This document shows positions 18,255 to 48,281 of a stretch of DNA of 48,440 bases, piece after piece (position 1 is the first letter of the stretch; every line of letters starts with the position of its first letter). The notes below the pieces were generated by a model. That model was given only the letters and a program-made list of their open reading frames with translations, had not been told where the DNA came from and ran no database searches. The stretch covers positions 1 through 48,440 of the forward strand of contig NZ_JACMOM010000372.1 in NCBI RefSeq assembly GCF_014378035.1. The letters run 5' to 3'. The position numbers and the translations under genes are program-made. The stretch is from Aeromicrobium sp. Its GTDB lineage: Bacteria > Actinomycetota > Actinomycetes > Propionibacteriales > Nocardioidaceae.

Positions 18255-18358
18255 CACTTCAGGATAGGTGCCGTGGCGCGCGTGCGTCGGTGACGTCTGG
18301 CCGGCCGTTGCGGGTGGCACCATTTCGCTTCGGCATGACGCTGCGACACAATGGGGGC

Positions 18359-18655
18359 GTGACAACCCCGGCCCCCGTCGAGATCGCCGAGCCAGACGTC
18401 GTTGAGATTGTCGAGCTCGAGAATCCTTGGGTCACGATCGTCTGGAACGACCCGGTCAACCTGATGTCGTACGTTGCCTACGTGTTCCGCAACTACTTCG
18501 GCTACACCGAGGAGAAGTCTCACGAGCTGATGCTTGCGGTGCACCACGACGGCAAGGCCACGGTCTCCAGCGGCAGCCGCGAGCAGATGGAGGTCCACGT
18601 GCAGGCCATGCACGAGTACGGCCTGTGGGCCACGCTCGAGCGGGCTGACGCGTGA
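18359..18655 (+). CDS. clpS: ATP-dependent Clp protease adaptor ClpS
   Basis: [48 protein letters not shown]. Confidence 0.95.
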
Positions 18656-31449: not shown

Positions 31450-32847
31450 CTACAGGTAGACCTTCTCCGGCACCTCGAGGGTGCCGTCGATGTTGTCGAG
31501 TTCCTGGTTCTTCGTCTCCGGTGTGGCGAACGCCATCCAGACCGCTGCGAGTGTCATCAGCACTGCAACAGCCGCGAACGTCAGGGGAAGGCCGACGTGA
31601 GGCCACAGCAGCGAGCCGAAGATCAGCGGTACGAATCCTGCCCCGACCCGGCTGACACTTGACGCCCAGCCGAACCCGCTGGCTCGCAGGTGAGTCGGGT
31701 ACAGCTCGGAGACATACGTGTAGAGCGCCGGGATCGTCAGCTCGATCACGAATCCGAATATGCCGATCCACCAGACCGCCGCAGTAGGCATGTCCAGCAC
31801 CAGGGCGAACACGACCAGCGACGCGCCGGCCACTGGGCCACTGAGGCCGATCACCCACTTGCGTCCCACCACGTCGACGAGCAACGCAGAGACGAGAACG
31901 CCCACCACTCCGACTCCGGTCATCAAAGTCGTGACCATGAAAGCGGCGTATTCGCCGTACCCCTGCTCGACCAAGATGCTCGGCAACCAGAGCAAGGAGC
32001 CGTAGTAGAGCAGGAAGACGGTGAGGAAGAGGGCCCAGCACACGGAAGTGATCTTGGCGCTGAACTTCCACAGTTCCGGAAGTTGCTTGGCGATGGATGC
32101 CAACGACAATTGCGGTGCTTCGTGGGTGGCGGAGAACTCCCAGTCCTCGGGGGCGGCGCCGGTACGTTCGACGAGTGAGTCGATGACCTCACGAGCCTCG
32201 GCGTGACGGCCACGGCGGATGAGGAACATCGGTGACTCGGGGACGGAACGCCTGATCCAGAACAAGAGGAATGCTGGCAGCACCATCACGAGCATCATTG
32301 CCCGCCAGTTGTCGATCAAGGTGAAGCCCAGGAGGGCGGTGCTCACCAAGCCGCACAGCGTTGCCCCGATGGGCCACCACACGTCCATCGCGGTGAGAAC
32401 GCGGCCGCGTACGGCGGCTGGTGTGAATTCGCCGACCAGTGCGTAGTCGACCGGGATGCAGCCACCGAGACCGAGTCCTGCGCAGAACCGAAAGACACAG
32501 AACAACCAGAAGGCGGGGGAGAGGGCGCCCAGAACGGTGAAGATCGAGAAGACGAGAAGCGTGAGGCTGAACGCTGTCTTGCGACCGATGATGTCGGCGA
32601 GTCCACCCCACATGAACGCCCCAATTGCCATTCCGATGAGGTTGGCGGTGCCGACCCATGCTGCTTGGCCGAGGGAAAGGCCCCACTCGTCACTGACGAG
32701 CGGGATCAGGAACCCGTTCATGGTCACGTCCCAGGCGTCGAACATGAACCCCAGGCCGCCGATGATGAACACCACGCCTTGGACGCGCCAGCGCCACGGC
32801 AGTTCTTGTACGATCTGGTCGCCCGTCTTGATGGTCTCTGTTGCCAT
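31450..32847 (-). CDS. MFS transporter (putative aromatic/organic acid:H+ symporter)
   Basis: About 12 TM; GGLADIIGRKTAF between TM2 and TM3; FMFDAWDVTMNG in TM1. Confidence 0.88.
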   Translation of the reverse strand: MATETIKTGDQIVQELPWRWRVQGVVFIIGGLGFMFDAWDVTMNGFLIPLVSDEWGLSLGQAAWVGTANLIGMAIGAFMWGGLADIIGRKTAFSLTLLVFSIFTVLGALSPAFWLFCVFRFCAGLGLGGCIPVDYALVGEFTPAAVRGRVLTAMDVWWPIGATLCGLVSTALLGFTLIDNWRAMMLVMVLPAFLLFWIRRSVPESPMFLIRRGRHAEAREVIDSLVERTGAAPEDWEFSATHEAPQLSLASIAKQLPELWKFSAKITSVCWALFLTVFLLYYGSLLWLPSILVEQGYGEYAAFMVTTLMTGVGVVGVLVSALLVDVVGRKWVIGLSGPVAGASLVVFALVLDMPTAAVWWIGIFGFVIELTIPALYTYVSELYPTHLRASGFGWASSVSRVGAGFVPLIFGSLLWPHVGLPLTFAAVAVLMTLAAVWMAFATPETKNQELDNIDGTLEVPEKVYL

Positions 32848-32911
32848 GTTGGTCGATGCTCCCTTGTCCTCAGCTGGGACCGCTTGTCCGTCTCCTGACG
32901 CACCGGCGATG

Positions 32912-32921
32912 TGGTATATCA
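32912..32921. promoter_or_regulatory. Putative GntR operator, MFS promoter
   Basis: TGGTATATCA; same 10-mer at 35506 and 36295, palindromic variant at 46041. Confidence 0.68.
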
Positions 32922-33070
32922 AATTTCAAATATAATGAAACCCGAGATCTGTGTCACAGTCAAGGTTTCAGACCCGACCCGTGACACGTGTTGCCGGTTG
33001 CCTTGAGACCGTTGCTGGACATGTCGTCCCGCCCTCTGCTGGCCACATGTTCTGATCGTGACGGCCCCTT

Positions 33071-33952
33071 CTACTTCGCGCCCGTTGTCGAGGTGGAGGG
33101 CGCCCGCGGGTCGCGTTCGCCCCATTTGTCGTGCTCGACAGCGGTGAAGAATCTTTCGAGGAGGGCATTGAACAGGACCGGCTCCTCGAGATTGGTGACG
33201 TGGCCGGATTTTGGCAACACTGCCAAACCGCAGCGCGGGATCGTGCGCTTCAGCATCAGGTCGGTCTCTAGGACCCCGTTGTCCTCGTCCCCTGCGATGA
33301 CCAGCACGGGTGGTTCGCAGGCGGCGAGCTCGTCCTGCATCGCATAGAGCGACGGTCGAGTTTTCTGGACGCCGCGCATCGTGTTGGCGGCCCCCACGGG
33401 ATCATGTTGGGCCAGTAGTTGCACGTGCCCACCGTGGCCACGCGGGTCCTTGGCCTCGTACTGCACGCGAGCCGGGCCGAAGCCATACCAATGTGACATC
33501 GCCGCCGACCCTTCGTCCTCGAAGGCCGTGGCAACCTTTTCCGATTCCCTGCGGAACTGCTCCTCGTTGTCCGGATGTGCGCCGTACCCGCAACCTGCCA
33601 CCACTGATCCCCGTGTCCGGTTCGGATGAGCCAGTGCGAAGTGGAGGGCGCAGAAGCCGCCCATCGAGTTGCCGACCACGAACGCCTTGTCCACCCCCGC
33701 GTCGTCCATCACGGTGAGGACGTCGGCGACCGCACGTGCCTGGCTGTAGGCCGTTGGGTCCTGTGGCACGTCGGAAGGAGGGAAGCCTCGGGCCGCGAGC
33801 ACGATGCAGCGGTAGGTGCGCGCAAAATGGCGAACCTGTGGCTCCCACGACCGGTGATCGCCGGCGAACTCGTGCAGGAAGACCAGAGGGTCACCGCGAC
33901 CGGTCTCCTCGTAGTAGAGATTGACGCCGTCATCGGTTGAGACGTTTGGCAT
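33071..33952 (-). CDS. Alpha/beta hydrolase
   Basis: GNSMGG nucleophile elbow, VIAGDEDN acid, SGHVTNLEEP histidine; atypical HEFAGD oxyanion segment. Confidence 0.9.
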   Translation of the reverse strand: MPNVSTDDGVNLYYEETGRGDPLVFLHEFAGDHRSWEPQVRHFARTYRCIVLAARGFPPSDVPQDPTAYSQARAVADVLTVMDDAGVDKAFVVGNSMGGFCALHFALAHPNRTRGSVVAGCGYGAHPDNEEQFRRESEKVATAFEDEGSAAMSHWYGFGPARVQYEAKDPRGHGGHVQLLAQHDPVGAANTMRGVQKTRPSLYAMQDELAACEPPVLVIAGDEDNGVLETDLMLKRTIPRCGLAVLPKSGHVTNLEEPVLFNALLERFFTAVEHDKWGERDPRAPSTSTTGAK

Positions 33953-33990
33953 CTTGGATCCTCACTTTGTCGGGTCGGCGCCAGCCGAGG

Positions 33991-34686
33991 TCAGTTCCTG
34001 CGGTATCGGTCCTTGCGACCGACGCCGATCCGCGCTCCGAGATAGGCCGCGAGCCCGGCGGCCGCGACGGTGCCCATGGAGCGCATGTGCCGTTGCAACA
34101 GTGGCCGGATGATCAGGCTCCATACGTCGAAGTCGCCGCCAGTCGCCGCAGCTGGCGGACCATCGAACGCGGCTGGTCCTTCCTCCTCGTCGCGGGAAGA
34201 CGGATCTGGCAGGCCGGTTTCCGCTGGGGCGGAAGAGCCACCGGGGGCCAGCATCTGCTCGACGTTGCTTGCGAACGTCTGCATGATGCCGTCGGTGACC
34301 TCGCCGATCACGCCCCGACCGAACTGGGCCACCTTGCCCCGGATGCTGAGCTCGGTGTTGATCGCCACCAGTGTGCGCCCTTGTTGCTCGCTCAGCTGGG
34401 CGATGATGTGTGCATCGGCATTGCCGGCACCGCGGAGCTCGCGCCCTTTCGCCCGCATGGTGAGCCGCAATTGATCATGATCGACCTCCAGGATCTTGAA
34501 CTGGCCTGTGTAGGCAACTCCCAGGGGCCCGACCTTGACCTTGACCTCGCCTTCGTAGGTGTCGGGTTCGGGACGGCCCGTGACCCGGGAACCGGGCATG
34601 CACGAGGCCACTCGCTCGATGTCCAGGAAGGCAGCGAACACCTCGGCGGACGGTCGGTCGATGGAGAAGGAGTTGGAGAGCTTCAC
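33991..34686 (-). CDS. coxG: CoxG-like SRPBCC protein with C-terminal TM helix
   Basis: SFSIDRPSAEVFAAFLDIERVASCMPGSRVTG...; TM-like MGTVAAAGLAAYLGARIGV; inside the Mo-hydroxylase cluster. Confidence 0.85.
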   Translation of the reverse strand: MKLSNSFSIDRPSAEVFAAFLDIERVASCMPGSRVTGRPEPDTYEGEVKVKVGPLGVAYTGQFKILEVDHDQLRLTMRAKGRELRGAGNADAHIIAQLSEQQGRTLVAINTELSIRGKVAQFGRGVIGEVTDGIMQTFASNVEQMLAPGGSSAPAETGLPDPSSRDEEEGPAAFDGPPAAATGGDFDVWSLIIRPLLQRHMRSMGTVAAAGLAAYLGARIGVGRKDRYRRN

Positions 34687-34687
34687 C

Positions 34688-35485
34688 TCAGCGTTCCATC
34701 AGGGACTTGCGTTGGGCCCCGTCGATCGGGATGTGGGCGCCGTGCACGCTGGCGGCGACGTCGGAGGCAAGGAAGGACACCAAGGCGGCTACTTCCTGGG
34801 GTTGGGTTATTCTGCCCAGCGGGATCGATGCCTCGGCCCGGCGACGGGCCTCCGCCTGGTCCACGCCCATGTCACGTGCGAATGCCTTTTCGAGACCGTC
34901 CCAGCGCTCAGTGTCGACGGGGCCCGGGTTGACCGTGTTCACCCGGATTCCTTTGGGACCGTACTGGTCGGCGATGGAGGATGCGAAGTTCAGGTCGGCG
35001 GCGTTGGCCGCGCCGGCGGTCATCTCCCAATAGCTGGGCTTCAGCCCGTCGTTGCCCACGACGAGCACGATCGCTCCGGAGCCCTGCTTGACCATGTGCG
35101 GGACGACCGAGCGGACCGTACGGACGTAGCCCATGAACTTGAGGTTGAGGCTCTCCATCCACTGTTCGTCGGTCAGCTCCTCGAGCAGACCGCCGGGTGA
35201 GCTCCCGGCGCAGGTCACCAGAACGTCGATGCGGCCAAACTCCTCCAGCGCAGCCTCGACACAACGGTCGACGTCTGCGGACCGGCTCATGTCGCCTGCT
35301 TGGGCGACAACCTTGCTTCCGGTCGCGGCGGCAATCTCGGCTGCTGTCTTCTCCAAGGCCTCGGGGTTGCGCGCAGTGATGACCACGTCACAGCCCTCGC
35401 TCGCCAGTCGGGTGGCAACCTCACGACCGATGCCTTTGCTTGCGCCGGTGATCAGGGCCACTTTGTTGACCAGATTCAAATCCAT
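34688..35485 (-). CDS. SDR-family protein with degenerate active site
   Basis: NAD(P) motif TGASKGIG; YxxxK position reads AGAAN in EMTAGAANAADLNFA. Confidence 0.87.
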   Translation of the reverse strand: MDLNLVNKVALITGASKGIGREVATRLASEGCDVVITARNPEALEKTAAEIAAATGSKVVAQAGDMSRSADVDRCVEAALEEFGRIDVLVTCAGSSPGGLLEELTDEQWMESLNLKFMGYVRTVRSVVPHMVKQGSGAIVLVVGNDGLKPSYWEMTAGAANAADLNFASSIADQYGPKGIRVNTVNPGPVDTERWDGLEKAFARDMGVDQAEARRRAEASIPLGRITQPQEVAALVSFLASDVAASVHGAHIPIDGAQRKSLMER

Positions 35486-35505
35486 GCTGAACTCCTCCGT
35501 TGGAT

Positions 35506-35522
35506 TGGTATATCAAATACCA
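35506..35522. promoter_or_regulatory. Putative GntR operator, SDR-coxG promoter
   Basis: TGGTATATCAAATACCA: TGGTAT-N5-ATACCA inverted repeat. Confidence 0.7.
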
Positions 35523-35536
35523 CTCAGCGGCTGAGG

Positions 35537-36268
35537 TCAAGGACCAGACAATCGGCCCTGACGGCTCGCGGTGCGGGCACTGGGGGCAGAACCCGTCCAC
35601 GAGTCGCGATTCTGCTGACGCTCCGCCGTGAGCCGACCGAGCAGATCGTCAGCGGTCGTCACCTTCTTGACCCTGGCCAGGGCTGCCGGATCCGCGCCGG
35701 CCAGCGAGACAGCCAGCTCCCGGGCTCGCGACCATGGGTCCTCGTCGACGCGTGCCGCGAGCCCGGCCTGAACCGCCTCGGCCGCGTGGAGCCAGCGCGA
35801 AGTCAAGGTGAGATCCAGCGCCCGGGAACGGCCGAGGAGAGTCGGGAGAATCCAGGCCCCGACTGCTAATCCGTGGCCCGGACCCACCCAGCGCCAGCGC
35901 GCCTGTGCGGAGATGACCCTGATGTCGGCAGCGGTGGTGAGCTGAGCGCCACCGCCGACCGCGGCGCCCTCGACCACGGCGATCACGATGCCCGGTCGGG
36001 TGATCATCTGTTCGTAGCAGTCATAGAGCAGGTCGCTCAGACGGGTGCGGGTCGCGTCGTCGGTGTCCAGATCGGCACCCGAGCTGAAGATGTTCGCGGT
36101 CGTGCTGCCCAGCAGCAGGGTGCAAGAGGGTCGGGCAGAGAGGGTCCGGTGCAGATCTTCCACGGTGGCCAGCGAAAGCGCGTTGCGGCGAGCCGGTGCA
36201 TTGATCCGCACTCGGGTCACGCTGCCGGTTCCGCAGATGTCCTCTTCGTCGACGTGAAGGTCGCTCAT
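35537..36268 (-). CDS. Enoyl-CoA hydratase/isomerase (crotonase) superfamily protein, non-canonical active site
   Basis: Crotonase core VVEGAAVGGGAQLTTAADIRVISAQARW; both hydratase Glu positions substituted. Confidence 0.83.
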   Translation of the reverse strand: MSDLHVDEEDICGTGSVTRVRINAPARRNALSLATVEDLHRTLSARPSCTLLLGSTTANIFSSGADLDTDDATRTRLSDLLYDCYEQMITRPGIVIAVVEGAAVGGGAQLTTAADIRVISAQARWRWVGPGHGLAVGAWILPTLLGRSRALDLTLTSRWLHAAEAVQAGLAARVDEDPWSRARELAVSLAGADPAALARVKKVTTADDLLGRLTAERQQNRDSWTGSAPSARTASRQGRLSGP

Positions 36269-36294
36269 ATTTGATCCGTTCGCTCGTTGCGATA

Positions 36295-36304
36295 TGGTAT
36301 ATCA
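36295..36304. promoter_or_regulatory. Putative GntR operator, divergent crotonase / coxM promoter
   Basis: TGGTATATCA between divergent start codons, next to AAGGAG RBS. Confidence 0.7.
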
Positions 36305-36326
36305 ACGACCTAGAAGGAGTGTGTCT

Positions 36327-37196
36327 GTGAAGCCAGCAACATTTGAGTATCACCGGGCATACACCCCGGACGAGGTCGTAGAACTTCTGGACGAGCTCGG
36401 CGAAGATGCCAAGATCCTGGCAGGCGGCCAATCGCTCGCCCCCATGATGAACTTTCGGCTCGCCCGTCCGAGCGCACTGATCGATGTCAACACGGTCGTC
36501 GGTCTCGACTACATCCGACGCGAGGGTGACCAGCTGTGTGTCGGGGCAATGACCCGGCATCGCACCGTCGAGACCAGTACCGACGCTGACGTACAGGACG
36601 GCTTCGCGTTACTTCCACGGGCAGCGCGCTGGATCGGGCACTACCCGATCCGCACACGTGGCACGGTCGGAGGCAGCATCGCCCACTCCGACCCCACCGC
36701 TGAGTGGTGCATCTTAGCCAGGTTGTACGACGCAGACGTCGTGGTCCAGGGACCTGAGGGTCGACGGACAGTTCCGAGCGAAGGGTGGTTCACCGGTTTC
36801 CTGAGTACCTCTATCGGTCCGAGCGAGATGGTGGTGGAGACCCGCTTCAGCAGGCCCCGACCGTATGGCGCGTTGACCGAGTACGCACGTCGGCGCGGAG
36901 ACTTTGCGATTGCTGCCTCTGCGGTCGCGTTCGACGTCGTCGACGGACGTTGTCAGGATGTCAGCATCGTGCTCGGTGGAGTCGCGACGGAACCGTTGCG
37001 CCTGCCGGAGGCAGAAGCTGCCGTGGAGGGGTCCGTCCCGGAGGACCAGACGTGGGCCGAGGCAGCCCGGATTGCGGCTGCCGCGATCAAGAAGTCGTCC
37101 GACCCGCAGGACGACGACCGCTATCGCCGGCACCTCGTCGACACCCTGACTCGGCGTGCTTTCGACGAAGCGCTGGTGACGGGACCGACCTCGTGA
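36327..37196 (+). CDS. Xanthine dehydrogenase family FAD-binding (medium) subunit
   Basis: ILAGGQSLAPMMNFRLARPSALIDVN; TRGTVGGSIAHSDPTAEW; RBS AAGGAG then GTG at 36327 (36321 also possible). Confidence 0.92.
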   Translation: MKPATFEYHRAYTPDEVVELLDELGEDAKILAGGQSLAPMMNFRLARPSALIDVNTVVGLDYIRREGDQLCVGAMTRHRTVETSTDADVQDGFALLPRAARWIGHYPIRTRGTVGGSIAHSDPTAEWCILARLYDADVVVQGPEGRRTVPSEGWFTGFLSTSIGPSEMVVETRFSRPRPYGALTEYARRRGDFAIAASAVAFDVVDGRCQDVSIVLGGVATEPLRLPEAEAAVEGSVPEDQTWAEAARIAAAAIKKSSDPQDDDRYRRHLVDTLTRRAFDEALVTGPTS

Positions 37197-39568
37197 ATGC
37201 CAGCTCATCGGCCGCGCCGCGCTGGGTCGGCAGCCGGCTGCCCCGCCGGGAGGACTCGCGAATGCTGCGGGGCGCCGGACTGTTCGTGGACGATATCGCC
37301 GATCCGCATGCGTACCACTTGGCGTTCGTGCGCAGCCCACATGCCTCGGGGCGCATCATCGAGATCGGTACGGAGGACGCGCGCGCGATGCCGGGGGTGA
37401 TCGCGGTGCTCACCTCGGCCGATCTGGGCCATCCGCAACTGACCGCGGTGCTCGAACGGGAGGAGTTCATCGCGACTGCGATGCCGCTGCTGGCCCACGA
37501 CAAGGTCCGGTACGCCGGTGAGCCGATGGTGGTCGTCGTTGCCGAGAACCGCGGTCTCGCCGAGGACGCGGCTGAGAGCGTGTGGTGCGAGATCGAGGAG
37601 CTGCCGGCTGTCATGTCCTTCGACGATGCAGGTGCCGTGGCGACACCAATCCACGATGAGGCGCCTGACGGCGTGTTGTTCGATCTGCAAATGTTCTCGG
37701 ACGACGTGCTTGAGGAGCTGCTGGCGGAGGCACCACTAGTGCTCGAGGAAACCTTTCGAAGCGGCCGGGTCGCGGCCGCGCCGATGGAGTCGCGGGCCTG
37801 CCTGGGAGAGTGGCGCGCACGTGACGAGCAGGTCGTCCTTCACATCTCCACCCAGGTTCCACATCAGGTTCGCACCGGTGTCGCGCAGGCACTGGGGATT
37901 CCGGAAAGTCGGGTCCGGGTGATCGCGCCAGACGTCGGCGGCGGTTTCGGTCTGAAATGTGTCGTGGGACGCGAGGAGGTCGTGGCTGCCGCGATCACCC
38001 TCCGGCTTCGTCACGCGGTCCGTTGGAGTGAGGATCGCCAGGAGAATCTGATGGCTTCGTTCCACGGGCGTGAGCAGGATTACCGGATCCGGGCGGGTTT
38101 TGACGGTGAGGGACGCATCGTCGGGCTCGATGCCGACATCAGGTGCAACATTGGGGCGTACTCGGTGTCCCCGTTCAGCTGCGCGGTGGAACCGCTGATG
38201 GCCGCCACCGAGCTGCCGGGCGTCTATAAGGTTGGGCGGTATGCCGCCAGGGCCCGCGGATTCGCCAGCAACAAGGCTCCCACCGCGCCCTACCGGGGAG
38301 TGTCGCGTCCACAGATAGTCTTCGTCATGGAGCGGTTGATGGACAAGGCGGCTCAGAGACTGGGTCTCGACCGAGTGGAGATTCGGCGCCGCAACACGAT
38401 TCAATCCGAGGACTTCCCCTACACCGGTCCCAACGGCATCACGTACGAGCCGGGATCGTACGTGGAGGCACTGGACCACTGCGTGGCGGAAATCGAGACG
38501 GCCGGCTGGTGGCAGGCGTGTGAGCAGAACGATGGCCTGCTGCGTGGCGTGGGCATCGCGAACTTCTCCGAGAGGACCGCCTACGGCACCGCGACGATGG
38601 GTCTGCGCAAGATGCAGATGACTCCTGGCTTCGAGGTCTCGCACGTTCGGATGGACGCCTCGGGCGACGTAGTGGTGACCAGCGGGACCTGTGGGCATGG
38701 ACAGGGCCACGAGACGACATTCGCCCAGATCGTCGCCGACCGGTTGGGCATCACACCGGATCGAGTCAAGCTACGGCAGGGTGACACGGAGATCACCAGC
38801 TTCGGTTGGGGGACGTTCGGCAGCCGTTCGTTGGTGATCGGTGGCGGGGCGGCCGCCGTTGCTGCGCGTGGCGTGGCCGATCAGATCCGGCAGGTCGCGG
38901 GGGAGATGCTCGAGGCCGATGCTGCCGACATAGACTTGGCGGAGGGCTACGCGACGGTGCGCGGTGCGCCGGATGCGCGGATCGCCATCGACGACATCGC
39001 GGCGACGGTTCATTTCAGGTCGCACACGCTGAGCGAGCGTCGGGAATATCTGCTCGAAGCCAGCGGTAGCGCCGATCCTTCGGGAATGTTCTCGAATGCG
39101 GCACATGCGGCGCTGGTCGAGGTCGATCCGGGGACGGGTGACGCCCGTGTCTTGGACTACATCGTGGTCGAGGACTGTGGCGTCGTGGTGAACCCGATGA
39201 TCGTCGAGGGCCAGGTCCGTGGTGGTGTCGCCCAGGGCATCGCCGCGGCGCTGTACGAGGAGATGGAGTTTTCTTCTGAGGGCCAGCCGCAAAGTGCCAC
39301 CTTCATGGACTACCTGGTTCCGACCGCGAGCGAGATCCCGCGCGTCGCCGTGCATCACCTGGAGACACCTTGTGACCAGACGGAGACGGGGGCCAAGGGC
39401 ATGGGCGAAGGCGGGAGCATCGGCGCTCCTGCCGCTGTCGTCTCCGCGCTCAACCACGCGCTGCGTGAGTATCACGCCGACATCGACTTCATCCCGGTAC
39501 GACCAAGCGATCTGCGAAAGATCCTCGATGGCACAGCTGTTGTGCCACGAGAACAGGAGGCGATATGA
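37193..39568 (+). CDS. Xanthine dehydrogenase family molybdopterin-binding large subunit (L1)
   Basis: PDVGGGFGLK, TAPYRGVSRPQ, GAKGMGEGGSIGAPAAV (catalytic Glu); 4-nt overlap with M subunit. Confidence 0.93.
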   Translation: MNASSSAAPRWVGSRLPRREDSRMLRGAGLFVDDIADPHAYHLAFVRSPHASGRIIEIGTEDARAMPGVIAVLTSADLGHPQLTAVLEREEFIATAMPLLAHDKVRYAGEPMVVVVAENRGLAEDAAESVWCEIEELPAVMSFDDAGAVATPIHDEAPDGVLFDLQMFSDDVLEELLAEAPLVLEETFRSGRVAAAPMESRACLGEWRARDEQVVLHISTQVPHQVRTGVAQALGIPESRVRVIAPDVGGGFGLKCVVGREEVVAAAITLRLRHAVRWSEDRQENLMASFHGREQDYRIRAGFDGEGRIVGLDADIRCNIGAYSVSPFSCAVEPLMAATELPGVYKVGRYAARARGFASNKAPTAPYRGVSRPQIVFVMERLMDKAAQRLGLDRVEIRRRNTIQSEDFPYTGPNGITYEPGSYVEALDHCVAEIETAGWWQACEQNDGLLRGVGIANFSERTAYGTATMGLRKMQMTPGFEVSHVRMDASGDVVVTSGTCGHGQGHETTFAQIVADRLGITPDRVKLRQGDTEITSFGWGTFGSRSLVIGGGAAAVAARGVADQIRQVAGEMLEADAADIDLAEGYATVRGAPDARIAIDDIAATVHFRSHTLSERREYLLEASGSADPSGMFSNAAHAALVEVDPGTGDARVLDYIVVEDCGVVVNPMIVEGQVRGGVAQGIAAALYEEMEFSSEGQPQSATFMDYLVPTASEIPRVAVHHLETPCDQTETGAKGMGEGGSIGAPAAVVSALNHALREYHADIDFIPVRPSDLRKILDGTAVVPREQEAI

Positions 39569-40056
39569 AGGACCAACATCTGGTGACCTTGACGGTCAAT
39601 GGCCGTGAGCACGAGCTGGTGCTCGAGTCGCGTCAGTCGCTGGCAGACACCTTGCGTCAGGATCTCGGGTTGACCGGCACTCATCTTGGCTGCGAGCACG
39701 GCATCTGCGGCGCGTGCACCGTCCTCCTCGACGGTGAACCGGTTCGTTCCTGCCTGGTCTTCGGGGTTCAGGCTGACGGACGCGAAGTGCGCACCGTCGA
39801 GAACCTGGCGGACGGCGACGAGCTGAACGACCTTCAGCAGGCGTTCAGCCGTCACCACGGCCTCCAGTGCGGGTTCTGCACTCCTGGTTTCCTGATGTTG
39901 GCCGAGGCCTACCTGTCCACCGAGCCGACCGGACAGCGTGAGGAAGTCCGGGAGGTGGTTTCGGCCAACTTGTGCCGATGCACCGGATACGAAGGAATCG
40001 TGGATGCCATCTGCGAGGTCGCCGAGCTCCGTTGTCCGGGGGCGCGCCATGACTGA
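39565..40056 (+). CDS. (2Fe-2S)-binding small subunit of Mo-hydroxylase
   Basis: GCEHGICGACTVLLDGEPVRSC and QCGFCTPGF...ANLCRCTGYEGI. Confidence 0.95.
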   Translation: MKDQHLVTLTVNGREHELVLESRQSLADTLRQDLGLTGTHLGCEHGICGACTVLLDGEPVRSCLVFGVQADGREVRTVENLADGDELNDLQQAFSRHHGLQCGFCTPGFLMLAEAYLSTEPTGQREEVREVVSANLCRCTGYEGIVDAICEVAELRCPGARHD

Positions 40057-42349
40057 GCAGATCGGCCGGCGGGTGCCTCGCAAGGAAGACCACCGGCTGC
40101 TCGTCGGCGGTGGCCGATTCGGCGCCGACATCCAATGCACGCGGATGCTGCACGTGCGTGTTGTCCGCTCGCCGTTCGCCCATGGGGTGCTCACCCGCGT
40201 GGATACGTCCGCGGCCCTCAGTGTGCCCGGTGTCATCGACGTGGTCACTGCCCGCGACTTGCCTGCGAGCCTACGGATCCCGGTCCGACTGGAGGTCCAG
40301 GGACTCGATCTTTCCGACCACCTGCAACCCGTGCTCGCCAGCGACTCCGTCCGTTACGTGGGTGAACCGGTCGCTGTGGTGGTTGCCGAGGACCCCTACA
40401 TCGCAGAAGACGCTGCCGAGATGGTCCAGATCGACATCGAGGAGCTTCCAGTGGTTCTCGACCCGTCCGCTGCTGGTGGTGACGACGTCGTGGCTGACTT
40501 CCGTCTCGGATTCGGTGACGCGGACGCTGCTTTCGCCTCCGCCGCCCACGTCGTGGCGATGGACTTCAGCGTCGGCCGCCACACTGCCGTCCCGATGGAG
40601 CCTCGCGCGCTGGTCGTCGACTACACGGCGGCCACGGACTCCTTGGAGATCTACGGCGCCACCAAGGTGCCGGCATTCAACCGTGGAGTCCTGGCCGACC
40701 TGCTCGGTGTGGACCAGAGCACCATTCGGATGCACGCGGTCGACGCCGGCGGCGGGTTCGGTGTCCGTGGCGAGTTCTACCCCGAGGACTTCCTGGTGCC
40801 CTGGCTGTCACGAAAGCTGCGGCGCAACCTGTCCTGGGTCGAAGATCGCGCCGAGCACCTGGTGTCGGTCAACCATTCCCGGGAGCAACAGCATCACATC
40901 GAGGTCGCGCTAGAAGCCGACGGCACGATTGTCGGCTTGCGTGACGATGTCTGGCACGACAACGGTGCCTATGTCAGGACCCACGGCATCATCGTCCCCG
41001 AGCTGACTCTCGCGATGTTGCCCGGTCCCTACCGGATCCCGGCCTACGAAGGACGCGTCCGGGTGGCGCTGACCAACAAGACCCCGTGCGGCACCTATCG
41101 TGCGCCGGGCCGCTTCGAGGGCACGACCGTGCGCGAGCAGCTGCTCGACAAAGCGGCCTACGAGCTGGGCATCGACAGGGTGGAGCTGCGCCGGATGAAC
41201 CTGCTGCGCGCCGATGAACTGCCGCACAGGCGGGCGATGACCACGCTGGGAACCGACGTCGTCCTGGATTCTGGTGACTATCCCGGCCTGTTCGGCCGTG
41301 CGCTGGAACGCGCCGACGAGCTCGGCTGGAACCGCCTCGTCCAGAGCGCCCGGGCGGATGGCCGTCGTGTCGGACTTGGGGTTGCCATGTTTTTGGAGAA
41401 GAGCGGTCTCGGACCCAACGACACGGCCGATGTCGAGGTGACTAGCTCGGGCCGGATCCGGGTGCACTCAGGCGGCACGTCGCTGGGACAAGGCATCGAG
41501 ACCGTCCTCGCGCAGATCGCGGCCGATGAGTTCGGTGTCTCGATCGACATCGTCGACGTGGTCAACGGGGACACCTTGCTGCAGCCGTACGGCACGGGAT
41601 CGTGGGCGAGCCGTTCAACTGTGGTCACCGGTAGCGCCGTCCGCGGCGCTGGGCAGCTGGTGGTCGCACGACTGCGTGAACTCGGGGCCAGGATGCTGGA
41701 GGTGGCCGAGGGAGACGTTGAAGTCAACGAAAGGCAGGTGCGGGTCCGCGGTGCGACGGCGAGCGCACTGAGCTTCGCCGACGTGTGGCGCGCTGCGCAA
41801 CCGGGAAGCGCTTGGCTGCACGCCGACGAGCCAGCGGGTCTGTTCGCCCGGCATCGCTTCAGCGTCGACCACATGACCTACCCGTACGGGGCACACATTT
41901 GCGTCGTCGAGCTGGATGCCGGCACCGGTGCTGTGAAGGTGCTGCAATATCTGGTGGTCTACGAGGTCGGTCGTGCGGTCAATCCGACATTGGTCGAGGG
42001 ACAGCTGCGTGGGGGGGTCGCCCAAGGAATCGGTGGTGCATTGTTCGAACAGTTCAGCTACGACGACGCCGGACAACCACAGGTGACCACGTTCATGGAC
42101 TACCTGATGCCGACAGCGTCGGAGATCCCGGACATCGACCTCCTGGTGTGCGAGGATGCACCATCGACGACGAACCCGTTGGGTGCCCGCGGTGCCGGTG
42201 AAGGTGGACTTACCGGTGCGGGGGCGGCAGTGGCGAGCGCAGTAAGTGACGCGCTCGGACTGCCGGCAATGACGCAGTTGCCGATACGACCTGAGCTGGT
42301 CGTGGCAGGTATTGCTAGTAACGGCCTGTTGAGCGGGACGGGAGCCTAG
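40049..42349 (+). CDS. Second xanthine dehydrogenase family molybdopterin-binding large subunit (L2)
   Basis: VDAGGGFGVRGEF, PCGTYRAPGRFEG, GARGAGEGGLTGAGAAV; 8-nt overlap with small subunit. Confidence 0.93.
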   Translation: MTEQIGRRVPRKEDHRLLVGGGRFGADIQCTRMLHVRVVRSPFAHGVLTRVDTSAALSVPGVIDVVTARDLPASLRIPVRLEVQGLDLSDHLQPVLASDSVRYVGEPVAVVVAEDPYIAEDAAEMVQIDIEELPVVLDPSAAGGDDVVADFRLGFGDADAAFASAAHVVAMDFSVGRHTAVPMEPRALVVDYTAATDSLEIYGATKVPAFNRGVLADLLGVDQSTIRMHAVDAGGGFGVRGEFYPEDFLVPWLSRKLRRNLSWVEDRAEHLVSVNHSREQQHHIEVALEADGTIVGLRDDVWHDNGAYVRTHGIIVPELTLAMLPGPYRIPAYEGRVRVALTNKTPCGTYRAPGRFEGTTVREQLLDKAAYELGIDRVELRRMNLLRADELPHRRAMTTLGTDVVLDSGDYPGLFGRALERADELGWNRLVQSARADGRRVGLGVAMFLEKSGLGPNDTADVEVTSSGRIRVHSGGTSLGQGIETVLAQIAADEFGVSIDIVDVVNGDTLLQPYGTGSWASRSTVVTGSAVRGAGQLVVARLRELGARMLEVAEGDVEVNERQVRVRGATASALSFADVWRAAQPGSAWLHADEPAGLFARHRFSVDHMTYPYGAHICVVELDAGTGAVKVLQYLVVYEVGRAVNPTLVEGQLRGGVAQGIGGALFEQFSYDDAGQPQVTTFMDYLMPTASEIPDIDLLVCEDAPSTTNPLGARGAGEGGLTGAGAAVASAVSDALGLPAMTQLPIRPELVVAGIASNGLLSGTGA

Positions 42350-42351
42350 TC

Positions 42352-43038
42352 ATGGTCACTCCAGATGAGATGGGTCGGCCACACATCCGATCAACCGTCG
42401 GCGGATTGTCACTGATGCAGTACTCGTCCAAGAGCGACATCGTCTGCGCGATGCTGCGCGAACTCATCATCAGCGGCGAGCTGGCGCCATCGGAACCGCT
42501 GCGCCAACGTGACCTCGCCGCGCGGTTCGGGGTGAGTCAGACCCCTGTACGGGAAGCTCTGCGCAAGCTGGAGTCTGAAGGCCTGGTGATCAACGACCCG
42601 CACCGTGGTGCCGTGGTCGCCGGATCACGAAATGGCATGGTCAGTGACAACTCACAGATCCGGGCGGTACTCGAACCGTTGGCCGCGCAACTCGCTGCAC
42701 GGGCCATCACCGACGAGCAACTGGCGCTGTTGCGCCAGCTCAACGGCCAGATGGAAGCGCTGCCTGAAGGCGATGAACGCTACGGCGCGTTGAACCGTGA
42801 GTTCCATTTCGCGATCTACGAGTCCTCGGCCTCACCGATGCTGTTGTCGATGATGCGTTTGCTTTGGCAGTCGATGCCGCATGGCCCTGCCGTCACCCGC
42901 AGTCATACCACGTCCGTCGACCAGCACTCAGCGCTGATCGAAGCTCTGGCTGCACGGGACCCTGAGCGGACGGCCGAGATCACCCGCAGCCACATCTTGG
43001 ACACCAGCTATGTCGAGTCCCACGAGACGGGCGCCTAG
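42352..43038 (+). CDS. GntR family regulator, FCD (FadR) subfamily
   Basis: HTH EPLRQRDLAARFGVSQTPVREALRKLESEGLVI; FCD metal-like NREFHFAIYE, QHSALIEAL, RSHI. Confidence 0.93.
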   Translation: MVTPDEMGRPHIRSTVGGLSLMQYSSKSDIVCAMLRELIISGELAPSEPLRQRDLAARFGVSQTPVREALRKLESEGLVINDPHRGAVVAGSRNGMVSDNSQIRAVLEPLAAQLAARAITDEQLALLRQLNGQMEALPEGDERYGALNREFHFAIYESSASPMLLSMMRLLWQSMPHGPAVTRSHTTSVDQHSALIEALAARDPERTAEITRSHILDTSYVESHETGA

Positions 43039-43065
43039 GCGGACAGGGCGGCTCTCCTGACTCAT

Positions 43066-44466
43066 TCACCACTCGTGGTCGGTAGCGACACGGGTGTGCT
43101 GCTCGATTCTCAGCGCGAGGGCGACGCAGACGGCCTCGCCGTGCGGGGGCGCCATGATCTGCGCGCCGACGGGCGCTGCCGACGTCTGGATGGGGACGCT
43201 GATTGCAGGCGTCCCGGTGACGGATGCCCACGCGGTGAATCGGGTCAGAGCCGAGGAGACCGGCACCGCGCGGTTCGCGATCTCGACGGTACCGACACCC
43301 CGGAGCGGAGCCACACAGGGCGTGGTTGGCGTCAGGAACGCATCGAGATCATGTTCCGCGAACAGGCTGGCGGTTGCAGCGGTGAGCACCTTTCGTGCGT
43401 CTGCGATCAGCTGAGCATGTTGCTTGAGCTCCTCACCGAGAGTCAGCAGCGCCCGCGCTTCACCCCCGAAACCGGCAGGATCTGCCTGCACCGCGGCAGC
43501 GTGTTGTTCGGCCGAGGACAACAGCATCGTGAGCAGCGAGATGCTCCCCGCGTGGCGGGGTAGCTTCGTGTCGACGGCGATCGTCCGGACACCGGAGCGG
43601 GTGAGATCCGCAACGGTGCGTTCGTACGCCCGCCCGGTCGGTGAATCCAGTGGCCCCGGTTCGCGGAGCACGCCGACGCGCAGGCCCGACACTGGCCGCT
43701 TGGCTCCGAGGGGCTTGTGGAGGAGGACTTCGAGCATGGCTGCACAGGTGCGGGTGTCTTGGGCAAAAGGGCCGGCGACGTCCATCTCAGGGGCGAGCGG
43801 GGTGATGCCGCGCATGTCCACCGATCCGGTGGTGGGACGGAACCCGACCACTCCGCACAGAGCAGCCGGGATGCGGATCGAGCCGCCGGTGTCTGTGCCA
43901 AGTGCGCTGGCGCACACCCGCGCGGCCACGCATGCGGCGCAGCCTCCCGACGATCCGCCCGTGGTCCACTCACGGTCGAGGGGATGCCCTATCTGCGGGG
44001 TGATGACACCCCAGGCCATTTCGTGGGTGGCCGCCTTGCCGACGCATTGCGCACCGGCGGAAGCGAGCCGCGCCCAGGCGGGCGCGGACTGGGCTGGTTC
44101 CCGCCATGCGGCGCCCGGTGTGCCGTTGTGAACCGGCAGCCCGGCCACGTCGATGATGTCTTTGACGGCCACAGTGAGGCCGTGCAGGGCGCCCGGTCGG
44201 GGGTTCTCAGGAGTGTTCGCGGCAGCGACCAGCCAGCCCTCATCCAGCGCGGAGTCGATCGAGACCACGGGTGGCGTGGGATCCGCGGCCCATCCCAGCC
44301 AGCCTGCGTCGGCGGGCCCAGGCAGGCACCAGTCGGACAGTGCAGCTGAATCGGCCATGAGAGTCTCGGCGATGGTGATGGCGCGCCGCATCCAGTCCCG
44401 GTAGGTCTCTCTCGTCGCACGCTCCAAGGCGACTTCTGGGAGCGGCCAGCGGGGGGCTCTGGTCAT
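43066..44466 (-). CDS. Amidase signature family amidase
   Basis: LTVAVKDIIDVAG, TTGGSSGG, ALGTDTGGSIRIPAALCGVVGFRPT. Confidence 0.93.
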   Translation of the reverse strand: MTRAPRWPLPEVALERATRETYRDWMRRAITIAETLMADSAALSDWCLPGPADAGWLGWAADPTPPVVSIDSALDEGWLVAAANTPENPRPGALHGLTVAVKDIIDVAGLPVHNGTPGAAWREPAQSAPAWARLASAGAQCVGKAATHEMAWGVITPQIGHPLDREWTTGGSSGGCAACVAARVCASALGTDTGGSIRIPAALCGVVGFRPTTGSVDMRGITPLAPEMDVAGPFAQDTRTCAAMLEVLLHKPLGAKRPVSGLRVGVLREPGPLDSPTGRAYERTVADLTRSGVRTIAVDTKLPRHAGSISLLTMLLSSAEQHAAAVQADPAGFGGEARALLTLGEELKQHAQLIADARKVLTAATASLFAEHDLDAFLTPTTPCVAPLRGVGTVEIANRAVPVSSALTRFTAWASVTGTPAISVPIQTSAAPVGAQIMAPPHGEAVCVALALRIEQHTRVATDHEW

Positions 44467-46019
44467 GCGCGAGAGGACGGGACAAGTTGGTTTCGGGTTA
44501 CTTTCCCCATGGCATTGCGCGGAAGCTGGTCGAGGAAGAAGACTCTCTTGGGGCACTTGTACGCCGCCAGATGATCTAGGCAGTGAGCGAGGATCTGCTC
44601 GGAGCTGACCTGTTGGCCGGCGCGCGCCACGACCCACGTGGCGACTTCCTCACCCCAGCGCTCGCTGGGCAGCCCGGCGACGGCGGCTTCCCGGACGCCG
44701 GGGAGCTGCTCGATGACCCGCTCGACCTCGGTGGGCACAACATTCATGCCGCCGGTGATGACGAGCTCCTTGAGCCGGCCACTGATGATCAGCAGTCCCT
44801 CGTCGTCCCAGCGGCCGAGATCCCCGGTCCGGAACCACTGTCCGGGCCAGAATGCTGCGTCGGTGGCTGCTGGATCGTCGAGGTAGCCATCAAAGACCTG
44901 GGGCCCACGGAGCACGATCTCGCCCTCGGTTCCGACTTCGACGGGATGACCCCGCACGTCGGTCAGGGCGACTTCGACCCCCGGCAGCGGGTATCCGACC
45001 GCGCCGACCGTGCGCTCGCCTTCGTAGTTGTTCGAAACGTTGAGGCCGGTCTCGGTCAGCCCATATCGTTCCAGCGGCATCATGCCGACCTTCTCGAAGT
45101 AGGCTCGGGCCAAGGTGGCTGACAGCGGCGCGGAGCCTGAGGTGGCCAGTCGGAGTCGCCGCAATGGGGCGAGCTGTTCCCGATCCAGTGCGACCAGGCG
45201 TTGGTGGATGCTTGGTACTGCAAACATCACTGTGGCCTGCGTCCGAGCGATGGTCTCCAGCAGCCGGTCCGGGTCGAAGCGTGCGAGGACGCCCGCTTTG
45301 GAGCCGGCGAGAAGGCTAACGTGAATACCACTCAGGCCGTGCTGATGGAACAACGGCAGCGCGTGCACAAGGATGTCCTGGCTGTTCCAGCGCCACGCCA
45401 GCATCGCCGACCGGATCGAGGCCAGCAGTTGGCCGTGGGTGAGTGGGACCCCCTTCGGGAGTCCAGTGGTGCCCGAGGTGAAGGCGAGCAAAGCGACGTC
45501 CCGGGAGTCCAGACCGACCGGCGGATGTTCTGCTGCAGACTCTGTCGCTTCGATGAGATCATCCATGCGGAATACCGGCACCGAGGTTGTCCGCGCGAGC
45601 TGGTCATCAGTCAGCACGATGACCGGGTCGCAGCGGTCGACCACCCGATTCAGTTCGCTCGTCGTGAAACCAGGGTTGGTCAACACCATGACGGCACCCA
45701 GCCGAAGGCCGGCAAGATAGGCGACGACGAACGCCATCGAGGTTGGTGCGCTGATCACGACCCGCTCACCGTGGACGACGCCGTGCTCAGCCAGGACCGA
45801 CGCCGCGCGAGCGGCGCGTGCACGCAGGTCGGCGTACGTGATGGTCGCTTCCTCGATCGTGAGCGTGGAGTCGGGGTGCGTTCGCGCGGTCTGCGCGAGG
45901 ACGTCGGGGATGGTTCCCCGGCTCAGCTGCCGCCGGAGTGCCGCCGGGTCCAAGTTTTCCGGAGTCGCACCCAGATGGCCGATCCAGGCCTGCATCATCG
46001 CTGGCTCTACGTCTCGCAC
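44463..46019 (-). CDS. Class I adenylate-forming acyl-CoA ligase
   Basis: LAFTSGTTGLPKGVPLTH, WFRTGDLGRWDDEGLLIISGRLKELVITGG, PRNAMGKVTRNQL; GTG start with RBS; 4-nt overlap with amidase. Confidence 0.93.
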   Translation of the reverse strand: MRDVEPAMMQAWIGHLGATPENLDPAALRRQLSRGTIPDVLAQTARTHPDSTLTIEEATITYADLRARAARAASVLAEHGVVHGERVVISAPTSMAFVVAYLAGLRLGAVMVLTNPGFTTSELNRVVDRCDPVIVLTDDQLARTTSVPVFRMDDLIEATESAAEHPPVGLDSRDVALLAFTSGTTGLPKGVPLTHGQLLASIRSAMLAWRWNSQDILVHALPLFHQHGLSGIHVSLLAGSKAGVLARFDPDRLLETIARTQATVMFAVPSIHQRLVALDREQLAPLRRLRLATSGSAPLSATLARAYFEKVGMMPLERYGLTETGLNVSNNYEGERTVGAVGYPLPGVEVALTDVRGHPVEVGTEGEIVLRGPQVFDGYLDDPAATDAAFWPGQWFRTGDLGRWDDEGLLIISGRLKELVITGGMNVVPTEVERVIEQLPGVREAAVAGLPSERWGEEVATWVVARAGQQVSSEQILAHCLDHLAAYKCPKRVFFLDQLPRNAMGKVTRNQLVPSSRA

Positions 46020-46040
46020 TAGATCTCCTCGCCTGAAACA

Positions 46041-46050
46041 TGGTATACCA
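46041..46050. promoter_or_regulatory. Putative GntR operator, ligase-amidase promoter
   Basis: Perfect palindrome TGGTATACCA. Confidence 0.7.
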
Positions 46051-46059
46051 GCGACGATA

Positions 46060-46749
46060 TCACTTCGGTGCGAGATCAGGTTCTTCCTTAGGTGTGGAGG
46101 GTGCCCCGTCGCGCTTGCGCCCGTTTGCGAGGCTGGCATGGAGCGGCTCAAGACCGGCGATCAGGCACTCGAGCGCAAGCGTAAAACTATCGGTGTCAAT
46201 CTCCTCCGCGTGATCGCGGATCAGATGGGCCTTGACCAGGTTGGGATATCGGTTCAGGTAGACGCGAGTGTCATCGGCGAACCCGCTGGCGAATGCCGTC
46301 GTTGCTGCGCCGATCACCAGATACTTCGTCGCGGCGGAGATCAAGGTCGCCTGGCGTGCGGGCCAACCGCCGGCGATCAGACCCCCGTGCACGGCGTCTG
46401 CCATCGTCAGGAAGTCTTGTCGCTCGCCGGTCCCGGCTGCGACGACCGGGGCGGCATTGGGGTGCGCGGCCAGAGCGCTGCGGTAGGAGCTGGCCCAGAC
46501 GCGTATGCCATTTCTCCAGTCCCCGTCGTTGAAGCCGGAGGTATCGACCCCTCGGGTGAGCAGGTTGGCCACCGCGTCCAACACGTCGTTCTTCGTCGGG
46601 TAGTGGCTGTACAGAGATGCTGCCTGCACGCCGAGCTCTTGGGCCAGTCGTCGCATGGAGAGCGCGGCAAGACCGTCGGAATCGATGACGGCGAGCGCAG
46701 CGTCGCGGATCAGGACTCGGTTGAGCAGCGGTGTGCTCGGACGCACCAT
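46060..46749 (-). CDS. TetR family transcriptional regulator
   Basis: LIRDAALAVIDSDGLAALSMRRLAQELGVQAASLYSHYPTKNDVLDAV. Confidence 0.92.
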   Translation of the reverse strand: MVRPSTPLLNRVLIRDAALAVIDSDGLAALSMRRLAQELGVQAASLYSHYPTKNDVLDAVANLLTRGVDTSGFNDGDWRNGIRVWASSYRSALAAHPNAAPVVAAGTGERQDFLTMADAVHGGLIAGGWPARQATLISAATKYLVIGAATTAFASGFADDTRVYLNRYPNLVKAHLIRDHAEEIDTDSFTLALECLIAGLEPLHASLANGRKRDGAPSTPKEEPDLAPK

Positions 46750-46780
46750 AGAAGGTCTCCTTGCTAAAACTAACGACGTG

Positions 46781-46801
46781 AGGTTAACATCCCATAAACC
46801 T
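46781..46801. promoter_or_regulatory. Possible TetR operator between TetR(-) and gcdH(+)
   Basis: AGGTT-N11-AACCT imperfect inverted repeat in an AT-rich divergent spacer. Confidence 0.4.
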
Positions 46802-46829
46802 AACACCGTTTGGTAAAGGAGCAATTGTC

Positions 46830-48005
46830 GTGACTGTGACACCCCAGAGCCCGCTGGACCTCTTCGGTACTGATTCGTTGGTGGGCGAGGATGATCTGGC
46901 GATCCGCGACACCGTCCGTAGATACGTCCAGGACAAGATCAAACCGCAGCTCGCGGACTGGTACGAGACGGCGAACATCCCGGCCCGGCACCTGGCGAAG
47001 GAGCTTGGCTCGCTGGGTCTGCTCGGCATGCACCTTGAGGGGTATGGATGCGCCGGGACGAGCGCTACCGCGTACGGCCTTGCGTGCATGGAGCTGGAGG
47101 CAGGTGATTCGGGCCTACGCAGCCTGGTGTCGGTGCAGGGGTCGCTGGCGATGTTCGCGATTTGGAAGCACGGTTCAGAGGAGCAGAAACAAGAGTGGTT
47201 GCCGCCGATGGCCGCAGGAGAGGCGATCGGCTGCTTCGGACTGACTGAACCGGATTTCGGTTCGGACCCGTCAGGGATGCGGACCCGTGCCCGCAGGGAC
47301 GGTGCGGACTGGGTGCTCAACGGCACCAAGATGTGGATCACCAACGGGTCGATCGCCGATGTCGCGGTCGTGTGGGCCCAGACGGATGACCGGATTCGCG
47401 GGTTCGTCGTGCCGACCGACACAGCAGGATTCTCAGCTCCGGAGATCATGAGGAAGCTCTCGCTGCGGGCGTCGGTGACCTCCGAGTTGGTGCTCGAGGA
47501 CGTCCGACTGCCGGCGTCGGCGATGCTGCCCGAAGCGGCTGGCTTGTCCGGTCCACTGTCCTGCCTGAACGAAGCACGATTCGGAATCGTCTTCGGAGCC
47601 CTCGGGGCGGCGCGCGACTGCTTGGAGACCGCGATCGGCTATTCCCAGGAACGGCAGATCTACGGCAAGCCACTGGCGACGTTCCAGGCCACTCAAATCA
47701 AACTGGCAGACATGACCCTCGAGCTGGGCAAGGGCCTGTTGCTCGCGCTGAATCTCGGCCGGCTCAAGGACCAGCACGTGCTCCGTCCTGAACAGGTCAG
47801 CCTGGGGAAGCTCAACAACGTCCGCGAGGCGATCGCGATCGCGCGGGAGTGCCGCACGATACTGGGTGCCGCCGGAATCACTTTGGACTACCCGATCATG
47901 CGGCATGCCAACAATCTCGAATCCGTGCTCACCTACGAGGGGACCTCCGAGGTCCACCAGCTCATCATCGGCCAGGCCCTCACCGGACAGTCCGCATTCC
48001 AATGA
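46830..48005 (+). CDS. gcdH: Glutaryl-CoA dehydrogenase-type acyl-CoA dehydrogenase
   Basis: GYGCAGTSATAYGLACMELEAGDSGLRSLVSVQGSLAM; GCFGLTEPDFGSDPSGM; LGRLKDQ; LTYEGTSEVHQLIIGQALTG. Confidence 0.9.
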   Translation: MTVTPQSPLDLFGTDSLVGEDDLAIRDTVRRYVQDKIKPQLADWYETANIPARHLAKELGSLGLLGMHLEGYGCAGTSATAYGLACMELEAGDSGLRSLVSVQGSLAMFAIWKHGSEEQKQEWLPPMAAGEAIGCFGLTEPDFGSDPSGMRTRARRDGADWVLNGTKMWITNGSIADVAVVWAQTDDRIRGFVVPTDTAGFSAPEIMRKLSLRASVTSELVLEDVRLPASAMLPEAAGLSGPLSCLNEARFGIVFGALGAARDCLETAIGYSQERQIYGKPLATFQATQIKLADMTLELGKGLLLALNLGRLKDQHVLRPEQVSLGKLNNVREAIAIARECRTILGAAGITLDYPIMRHANNLESVLTYEGTSEVHQLIIGQALTGQSAFQ

Positions 48006-48173: not shown

Positions 48174-48199
48174 CGGGATGTCCTGAGACATCGGATTTG

Positions 48200-48281
48200 T
48201 GCCGGTGACAGGACTTGAACCTGCACGCCCGAAGGCACAGGATCCTAAGTCCTGCGTGTCTACCAGTTCCACCACACCGGC
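48200..48281 (-). tRNA. tRNA-Leu (anticodon UAG)
   Basis: Acceptor GCCGGTG/CACCGGC, T-arm GGTTCAAGTCC, anticodon loop CTTAGGA, long variable arm. Confidence 0.92.

Follow-up and report, generated by a model that had tools for sequence, protein, structure and literature searches.

What compound is degraded by the genes between positions 31,450 and 48,005 of contig NZ_JACMOM010000372.1, and do they belong to one pathway? The stretch analysed, positions 1 to 48,440 of this contig (48,440 nucleotides; hereafter, the window), comes from an Aeromicrobium sp. metagenome-assembled genome (MAG) of 4.2 Mb that is 90.5% complete and 7% contaminated. A preliminary description had seen in it a continuous block of genes for an MFS importer, an alpha/beta hydrolase, a CoxG-like protein, SDR-fold and crotonase-fold proteins, the M, L1, S and L2 subunits of molybdenum (Mo) hydroxylases, GntR and TetR regulators, an amidase, an acyl-coenzyme A (CoA) ligase and glutaryl-CoA dehydrogenase (GcdH), and a listing of open reading frames (ORFs) with Pfam/NCBIfam scans found all 14 genes in the order and place described. 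The answer put forward here, with confidence that is about evenly balanced, is that they form a catabolic regulon under GntR control, which degrades a pyridine whose two alpha positions are unsubstituted, nicotinate being the likeliest candidate, and which ends at glutaryl-CoA/crotonyl-CoA.

The Mo hydroxylases have separate subunits for flavin adenine dinucleotide (FAD), two [2Fe-2S] clusters and Mo, with the active-site Glu in a GEGG motif, as is characteristic of the xanthine dehydrogenase family, and the M, L1, S and L2 genes overlap or abut. Neither large subunit is truncated, and the active-site motifs GGGFG and GEGG are intact in both; the two belong to different groups, in keeping with the earlier proposal of two ring hydroxylases. 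The best match of L1 is quinoline 2-oxidoreductase (530 bits), and that of L2 is KdhL (641 bits, against 433 for the next), which adds the second hydroxyl group to the pyridine ring of nicotine (PMC8305194). In a maximum-likelihood tree of large subunits that included pAO1 KdhL and NdhL, all L2 proteins grouped with KdhL (branch values 100/99), the L1 proteins (11 of 11) formed a single clade (100/98), and NdhL, the first nicotine hydroxylase of pAO1, fell on the L1 side (99/97). L2 also has the YRAPG loop of Kdh (FRGPG or YRGPG in two distant orthologues) and the equivalent of its essential W551. However, E345 of Kdh, which binds the cationic amine tail, is Gly in L2 and its orthologues, within an invariant RTHG, and, thus, L2 would resemble Kdh in its action but accept another side chain, and would not be Kdh itself. 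The simplest reading of these subunits would be that a pyridine with a substituent at position 3 or 4 is hydroxylated at its two alpha carbons in succession. Moreover, CoxG homologues tether such Mo enzymes to membranes, and the same has been proposed for 3-hydroxypyridine dehydrogenase (PMC11962113).

The gene block is one system, beyond what chance would produce, on the basis of synteny and a shared operator. The search for synteny with the M-L1-S-L2-GntR block, which the preliminary description had suggested, revealed orthologous clusters in five other actinomycete genomes (six with the window) and in three genomes of another class. Orthologues of L1 at 74-77% occur in a Nocardioides MAG (L003), in Qaidamihabitans albus (L004, labelled as Pseudonocardiaceae in the tree output) and in G008 and G031, two genomes from the same family as the window. 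L004, G008 and G031 keep the hydrolase, CoxG, SDR, crotonase, M-L1-S-L2, GntR, ligase and amidase genes nearby; the L003 contig is truncated, and gcdH, ligase, amidase, MFS and sodium:solute symporter (SSS) genes of the Nocardioides MAG are located on a separate contig. In Q. albus, ligase and amidase form a single 910-residue ORF adjoining gcdH, and in G618, from a further family, ligase, amidase and gcdH are co-directional and face hydrolase-CoxG-SDR, with L1-L2 on another contig. An SSS takes the place of the MFS importer in G008, G031 and G201. In the other class (family f18: G242, G580 and G375), M-L1-S-L2 is 50-55% identical, and G242 and G580 also contain crotonase, ligase, CoxG, MFS, GntR, gcdH (63%) and amidase (33-40%) genes, with a PF04199 hydrolase substituting for the alpha/beta hydrolase. 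The SDR-fold protein is conserved at 83-86% in close orthologues and at 64-67% in the three f18 genomes; at that level, it was found only in these genomes among about 400 sampled across the phylum, and in the class sample only in G618. The system is therefore rare but coherent. An Arthrobacter relative of the MFS importer (60%) was considered as a further cluster and rejected, as no cluster surrounds it.

The palindrome TGRTATAYCA occurs at four sites in the 48,440 bases, against 0.025 expected, each of them upstream of a cluster operon (Table 1), and TGATATACCA, with up to one mismatch allowed, gives 7 matches, against 0.20 in shuffles. Palindromes of this type have the appearance expected of a GntR/FCD operator, and TGRTATAYCA is proposed to be the predicted operator bound by the GntR/FCD regulator of the cluster. 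It also precedes the equivalent operons in L003, L004, G008, G031, G201 and G618: in G008 and G031 it stands upstream of the SSS importer instead of an MFS importer, in G201 it lies between gcdH and ligase, and in both G201 and G618 it fronts operons that include or flank gcdH. The palindrome is not present at the f18 loci or at a Paraburkholderia locus described below. The intergenic region between TetR and gcdH in the window (46750-46829) has no GntR-type operator but an inverted AGGTT/AACCT pair, and the gcdH of the window may be under TetR control, whereas that of G618 lies within the ligase-amidase operon behind a GntR-type site.

Most of the gene labels given earlier stand, except that the "SDR" lacks the dehydrogenase triad and the "crotonase" lacks both hydratase Glu residues. 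When the SDR-fold protein is aligned with 3ai1, a classical SDR, Gly, Ala and Asn stand in place of the triad residues Ser, Tyr and Lys, and they are invariant in actinobacterial orthologues. The closest relative of this protein in the PDB is AerF (6jh7; 176 bits, the runner-up scoring 127), in which the triad is missing too and which acts as a double-bond reductase dependent on reduced nicotinamide adenine dinucleotide phosphate (NADPH) (PMC13256417). Triad loss and likeness to AerF together suggest that the SDR-fold protein probably reduces a C=C bond. Haloarchaeal SDR relatives (41-44%) were rejected as kin of the cluster because their neighbourhoods are unrelated. In the crotonase-fold protein, invariant Gln and Gly residues occupy the two Glu positions, and a GPGHGLAV segment is also invariant; crotonase-fold decarboxylases likewise lack the Glu pair.

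The best structural match of the ligase is MatB (317.9 bits, against 239 for oxalate-CoA ligase), and its gene lies with, or is fused to, that of the amidase and adjoins the crotonase gene in several relatives; from this context and likeness, the MatB-like ligase probably acts late in the pathway. These features tell against the earlier proposal of early CoA activation and hydroxylation of a CoA ester. In a version of this kind, the acid would be activated first, its CoA ester would serve as the substrate of L1 and L2, and the ring, once reduced, would be opened as a thioester, for example from nicotinyl-CoA through 2,6-dioxopiperidine-3-carbonyl-CoA to glutaryl-CoA. Although some Mo enzymes do use CoA esters as substrates and the cluster has a conserved ligase as well as a conserved crotonase-fold protein, L2 groups with KdhL, whose substrate is a free pyridine, and we regard this sequence of events as unlikely, if the least improbable of four alternatives.

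The amidase carries the Lys, Ser and Ser motifs of the amidase signature, as judged from its sequence and homologues. Its conservation, its fusion to the ligase in one relative and the grouping of L2 with KdhL agree with the suggestion of an N-heterocyclic substrate, whereas furan or thiophene carboxylates, which had been suggested as well, would leave the conserved amidase unexplained. A ring other than pyridine, either a pyrimidine or one of these carboxylates, is the least probable of the alternatives and highly unlikely: related M-L1-S-L2 clusters in G107 and G139 do accompany PF04199 and carbon-nitrogen hydrolases and other importers, but amidase and GcdH together require a C5 chain plus N, while furan and thiophene contain no N and a pyrimidine ring has too few carbons. 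The conserved amidase and gcdH also speak against a 2-furoyl-CoA (hmf) pathway. Loci L051, L052 and L053 (in G107, G139 and G018) hold related quartets of this kind (42-47%) together with CoxG and a hydrolase of the PF04199 type, and L052 additionally has a carbon-nitrogen hydrolase, a cupin and an MDR reductase; these quartets apparently serve a different N-heterocycle pathway with the same double hydroxylase.

The cluster GcdH matches mycobacterial GcdH over its full length (642 bits) and contains the RS/VSVQ and YEGT segments. The window genome has two further gcdH genes elsewhere, at 70% and 64%, and the cluster copy is, thus, an extra, dedicated one; in six genomes, gcdH is linked to the ligase and amidase genes (cluster copies 63-80% identical), which upholds GcdH as the end point. 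This linkage also bears on the analogy drawn earlier with mycobacterial degradation of isonicotinate (as such or derived from isoniazid), a pathway that in Mycobacterium sp. INA1 runs via citrazinate and its CoA ester. Like the scheme proposed below, it comprises two successive hydroxylations by Mo enzymes, reduction of the ring and hydrolysis of an amide, but its product skeleton, propane-1,2,3-tricarboxylate, is no GcdH substrate and should not give glutaryl-CoA, which makes isonicotinate a very unlikely substrate.

A pyridine with both alpha positions free could be accommodated as follows. The substrate would be imported by the MFS or SSS transporter (step 1), L1 would hydroxylate one alpha carbon (step 2) and L2 the other (step 3), giving a 2,6-dihydroxypyridine (2,6-dihydroxynicotinate), with both large subunits sharing M and S and with CoxG holding the enzyme at the membrane. 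The AerF-like SDR-fold protein would then add a hydride to a C=C bond (step 4), since a single two-electron reduction of a 2,6-dihydroxypyridine would yield a glutarimide (2,6-dioxopiperidine-3-carboxylate), which hydrolase and amidase could convert into a C5 dicarboxylate: the imide would be opened by the alpha/beta hydrolase, or by the PF04199 enzyme in other lineages (step 5), and NH3 released by the amidase (step 6). If the ring carries a 3-carboxylate, as in nicotinate, the opened product would be (2-carboxyethyl)malonate, a substituted malonate, which would explain both a MatB-like ligase forming its CoA ester (step 7) and a Glu-less crotonase that decarboxylates this ester to glutaryl-CoA (step 8), the substrate from which GcdH would produce crotonyl-CoA (step 9). 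With nicotinate, a step would be available for every conserved gene, and carbon and nitrogen would balance, as nicotinate that is hydroxylated twice, reduced once, hydrolysed twice and ligated once to CoA would yield NH3, CO2 and glutaryl-CoA. The complete scheme would amount to a new aerobic nicotinate route, in which a single Mo complex, fitted with either of two large subunits, hydroxylates the ring twice, an SDR without its triad reduces a C=C bond, and opening of the imide and release of its nitrogen are followed by CoA activation by a MatB-like ligase and decarboxylation by a crotonase-fold enzyme; it is offered tentatively, as possible rather than probable. Family membership, phylogeny or motifs support the predicted reaction types of steps 1-3, 6 and 9 and the unity of the system, whereas we infer step 4 (from the likeness to AerF), steps 5, 7 and 8 and the identity of the substrate. 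A 2-carboxylate, as in picolinate, would leave a single free alpha position, and an unsaturated variant without reduction (glutaconamate, glutaconate and decarboxylation by GcdH) was dropped as the lead owing to the conserved AerF-like protein.

The same front end could also serve an uncharged or other 3-substituted pyridine, degraded via 2,6-dihydroxypyridine, glutarimide, glutaramate and glutarate, with the ligase forming glutaryl-CoA directly and the crotonase-fold protein acting in some other role. Such a route would fit ligase, amidase and GcdH directly, and MatB, the closest relative of the ligase, is a dicarboxylate ligase; nevertheless, the conserved crotonase has no role in it and most clusters carry dedicated acid-type importers, so that we also consider it unlikely, second among the alternatives.

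Several observations weigh against nicotinate degradation as set out above. The best family of the ligase, malonyl-CoA synthase PRK07514, is matched with 415 bits, under the NCBIfam cut-off of 558, and a carboxylate-binding arginine of MatB was rejected as evidence of a dicarboxylate substrate because it is not conserved in the ligase orthologues. A profile search of the PDB with the crotonase-fold protein placed EchA6 at the top, with no known decarboxylase favoured or among the best matches, and this search was not discriminating, for which reason no function was assigned from it. Moreover, gcdH is located elsewhere in G008 and G031, and the core enzymes may accept a wider range of substrates than a nicotinate intermediate, judging from plasmid p22B1P1 of Paraburkholderia sp. 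22B1P. This plasmid carries an operon (L061:10784-16030) of hydrolase (42%), crotonase, ligase (33%), SDR (54%) and amidase (32%), in which the crotonase also lacks the Glu pair and the SDR the triad. It follows an ABC transporter of the PnrA type and is flanked by a VanA-like Rieske oxygenase. The operon contains no Mo hydroxylase, and the best match to L2 on the plasmid is 36%. The five-gene tail would, thus, be a module combined with various front ends, a point in favour of its unity that at the same time broadens the range of possible substrates, and this core seems to move between phyla.

Known routes share parts of the proposed one. The pAO1 nicotine pathway of Paenarthrobacter nicotinovorans (NdhABC and KdhABC) also has two successive Mo hydroxylations of the pyridine ring, at C6 and then C2; however, the cluster has a single M and a single S gene to serve both L1 and L2, lacks a gene for dihydroxypyridine 3-monooxygenase, and would use a reductive tail with CoA and GcdH in place of 2,3,6-trihydroxypyridine. 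Bacillus niacini likewise forms 2,6-dihydroxynicotinate by two Mo hydroxylations, but continues oxidatively to 2,3,6-trihydroxypyridine (PMC9304392). The hxn pathway of Aspergillus nidulans includes a piperidinedione, opening by a cyclic imide hydrolase and then the amidase-signature amidase HxnN (PMC9304392), although it is fungal, uses other reductases and yields alpha-hydroxyglutarate instead of glutaryl-CoA. In the nicotinate pathway of Azorhizobium caulinodans and Eubacterium barkeri, reduction precedes hydrolytic opening and the skeleton is of the glutarate type (PMC9304392), but there is a single hydroxylation, 6-hydroxynicotinate is reduced to THON, from which 2-formylglutarate follows, and the E. 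barkeri enamidase is bifunctional. The endings of these four routes all differ from the proposed one. Mycobacterium sp. INA1 combines two Mo hydroxylations, ring reduction, a CoA ester and an amide, and differs in its 4-carboxylate, its tricarballylate skeleton and the lack of an expected GcdH step. In the open-access literature, subscription literature lying outside the search, no cluster with this set of genes was described, and nothing that matched it turned up for isonicotinate, for 2,6-dihydroxynicotinate or for clusters linked to GcdH; together with synteny and the operator, this sustains the view of a single undescribed catabolic system. If true, it would represent a further bacterial route of pyridine-ring destruction, in which an oxidative nicotine/nicotinate front is joined to a reductive glutaryl-CoA tail, and would provide functions for a pair of "dead" enzymes, namely an SDR and a crotonase that lack their catalytic residues. 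Since Q. albus is an isolate, the idea is testable at once.

The features of the window are collected in Table 1; several ORF starts were too long, and start codons were refined by reference to orthologues and operator positions.

Table 1. Genes and predicted operator sites of the cluster, with positions in the window.
Feature	Position	Strand	Remarks
MFS importer, aromatic-acid/H+ symporter-like	31450..32847	-	PF00083/PF07690; ORF to 32922, likely start about 32847
Predicted operator TGRTATAYCA	32912..32921		upstream of MFS
Alpha/beta hydrolase, proposed ring-opening (imide) hydrolase	33071..33952	-	orthologues 78-79%; 42% in Paraburkholderia operon
CoxG-like protein, likely membrane anchor of Mo enzyme	33991..34686	-	PF06240; role from PMC11962113
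SDR-fold protein without catalytic Ser/Tyr/Lys, AerF-like; proposed NADPH ene-reductase of dihydroxylated ring	34688..35485	-	
Predicted operator TGRTATAYCA	35506..35515		upstream of SDR-CoxG-hydrolase
Crotonase-fold protein without both hydratase Glu (GGGAQL, GPGHGLAV); proposed decarboxylase of malonyl-type CoA ester	35537..36268	-	
Predicted operator TGRTATAYCA	36295..36304		between divergent crotonase and M-L1-S-L2-GntR
M, FAD subunit of Mo hydroxylases	36327..37196	+	start about 36327 (GTG); ORF from 36294
L1, Mo large subunit, QorL/NdhL side; proposed first ring hydroxylation	37193..39568	+	
S, 2x[2Fe-2S] subunit	39565..40056	+	83-87% in close orthologues
L2, Mo large subunit, KdhL clade; proposed second ring hydroxylation	40049..42349	+	
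GntR/FCD regulator, proposed binder of TGRTATAYCA	42352..43038	+	orthologues 72-75%
Amidase-signature amidase, proposed NH3 release	43066..44466	-	ORF to 44637; ATGA overlap with ligase stop
Acyl-CoA ligase, MatB-like	44463..46019	-	start about 46019 or 45998; ORF to 46151
Predicted operator TGRTATAYCA	46041..46050		upstream of ligase-amidase
TetR regulator	46060..46749	-	start about 46749; ORF to 46842
Glutaryl-CoA dehydrogenase (gcdH), extra cluster copy	46830..48005	+	
tRNA-Leu	48199-48281	-	

The stretch adjoining the cluster (28264-31174) is without the operator and contains genes for an acyl-CoA dehydrogenase-like protein, a PIG-L/LmbE-like deacetylase, a methyltransferase and a glycosyltransferase, the deacetylase and methyltransferase labels being read from the ORF sequences alone; these genes are apparently unrelated to it. 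About 13 kb from the cluster, a nicotinate phosphoribosyltransferase gene (16947-18365, minus strand; 684 bits) is followed by one for an isochorismatase-like protein (16399-16950, minus strand) that looks like a nicotinamidase and has no NCBIfam match at 1e-30. This pair lies in a housekeeping stretch (murI, rdgB), and its proximity to the cluster is probably a coincidence.

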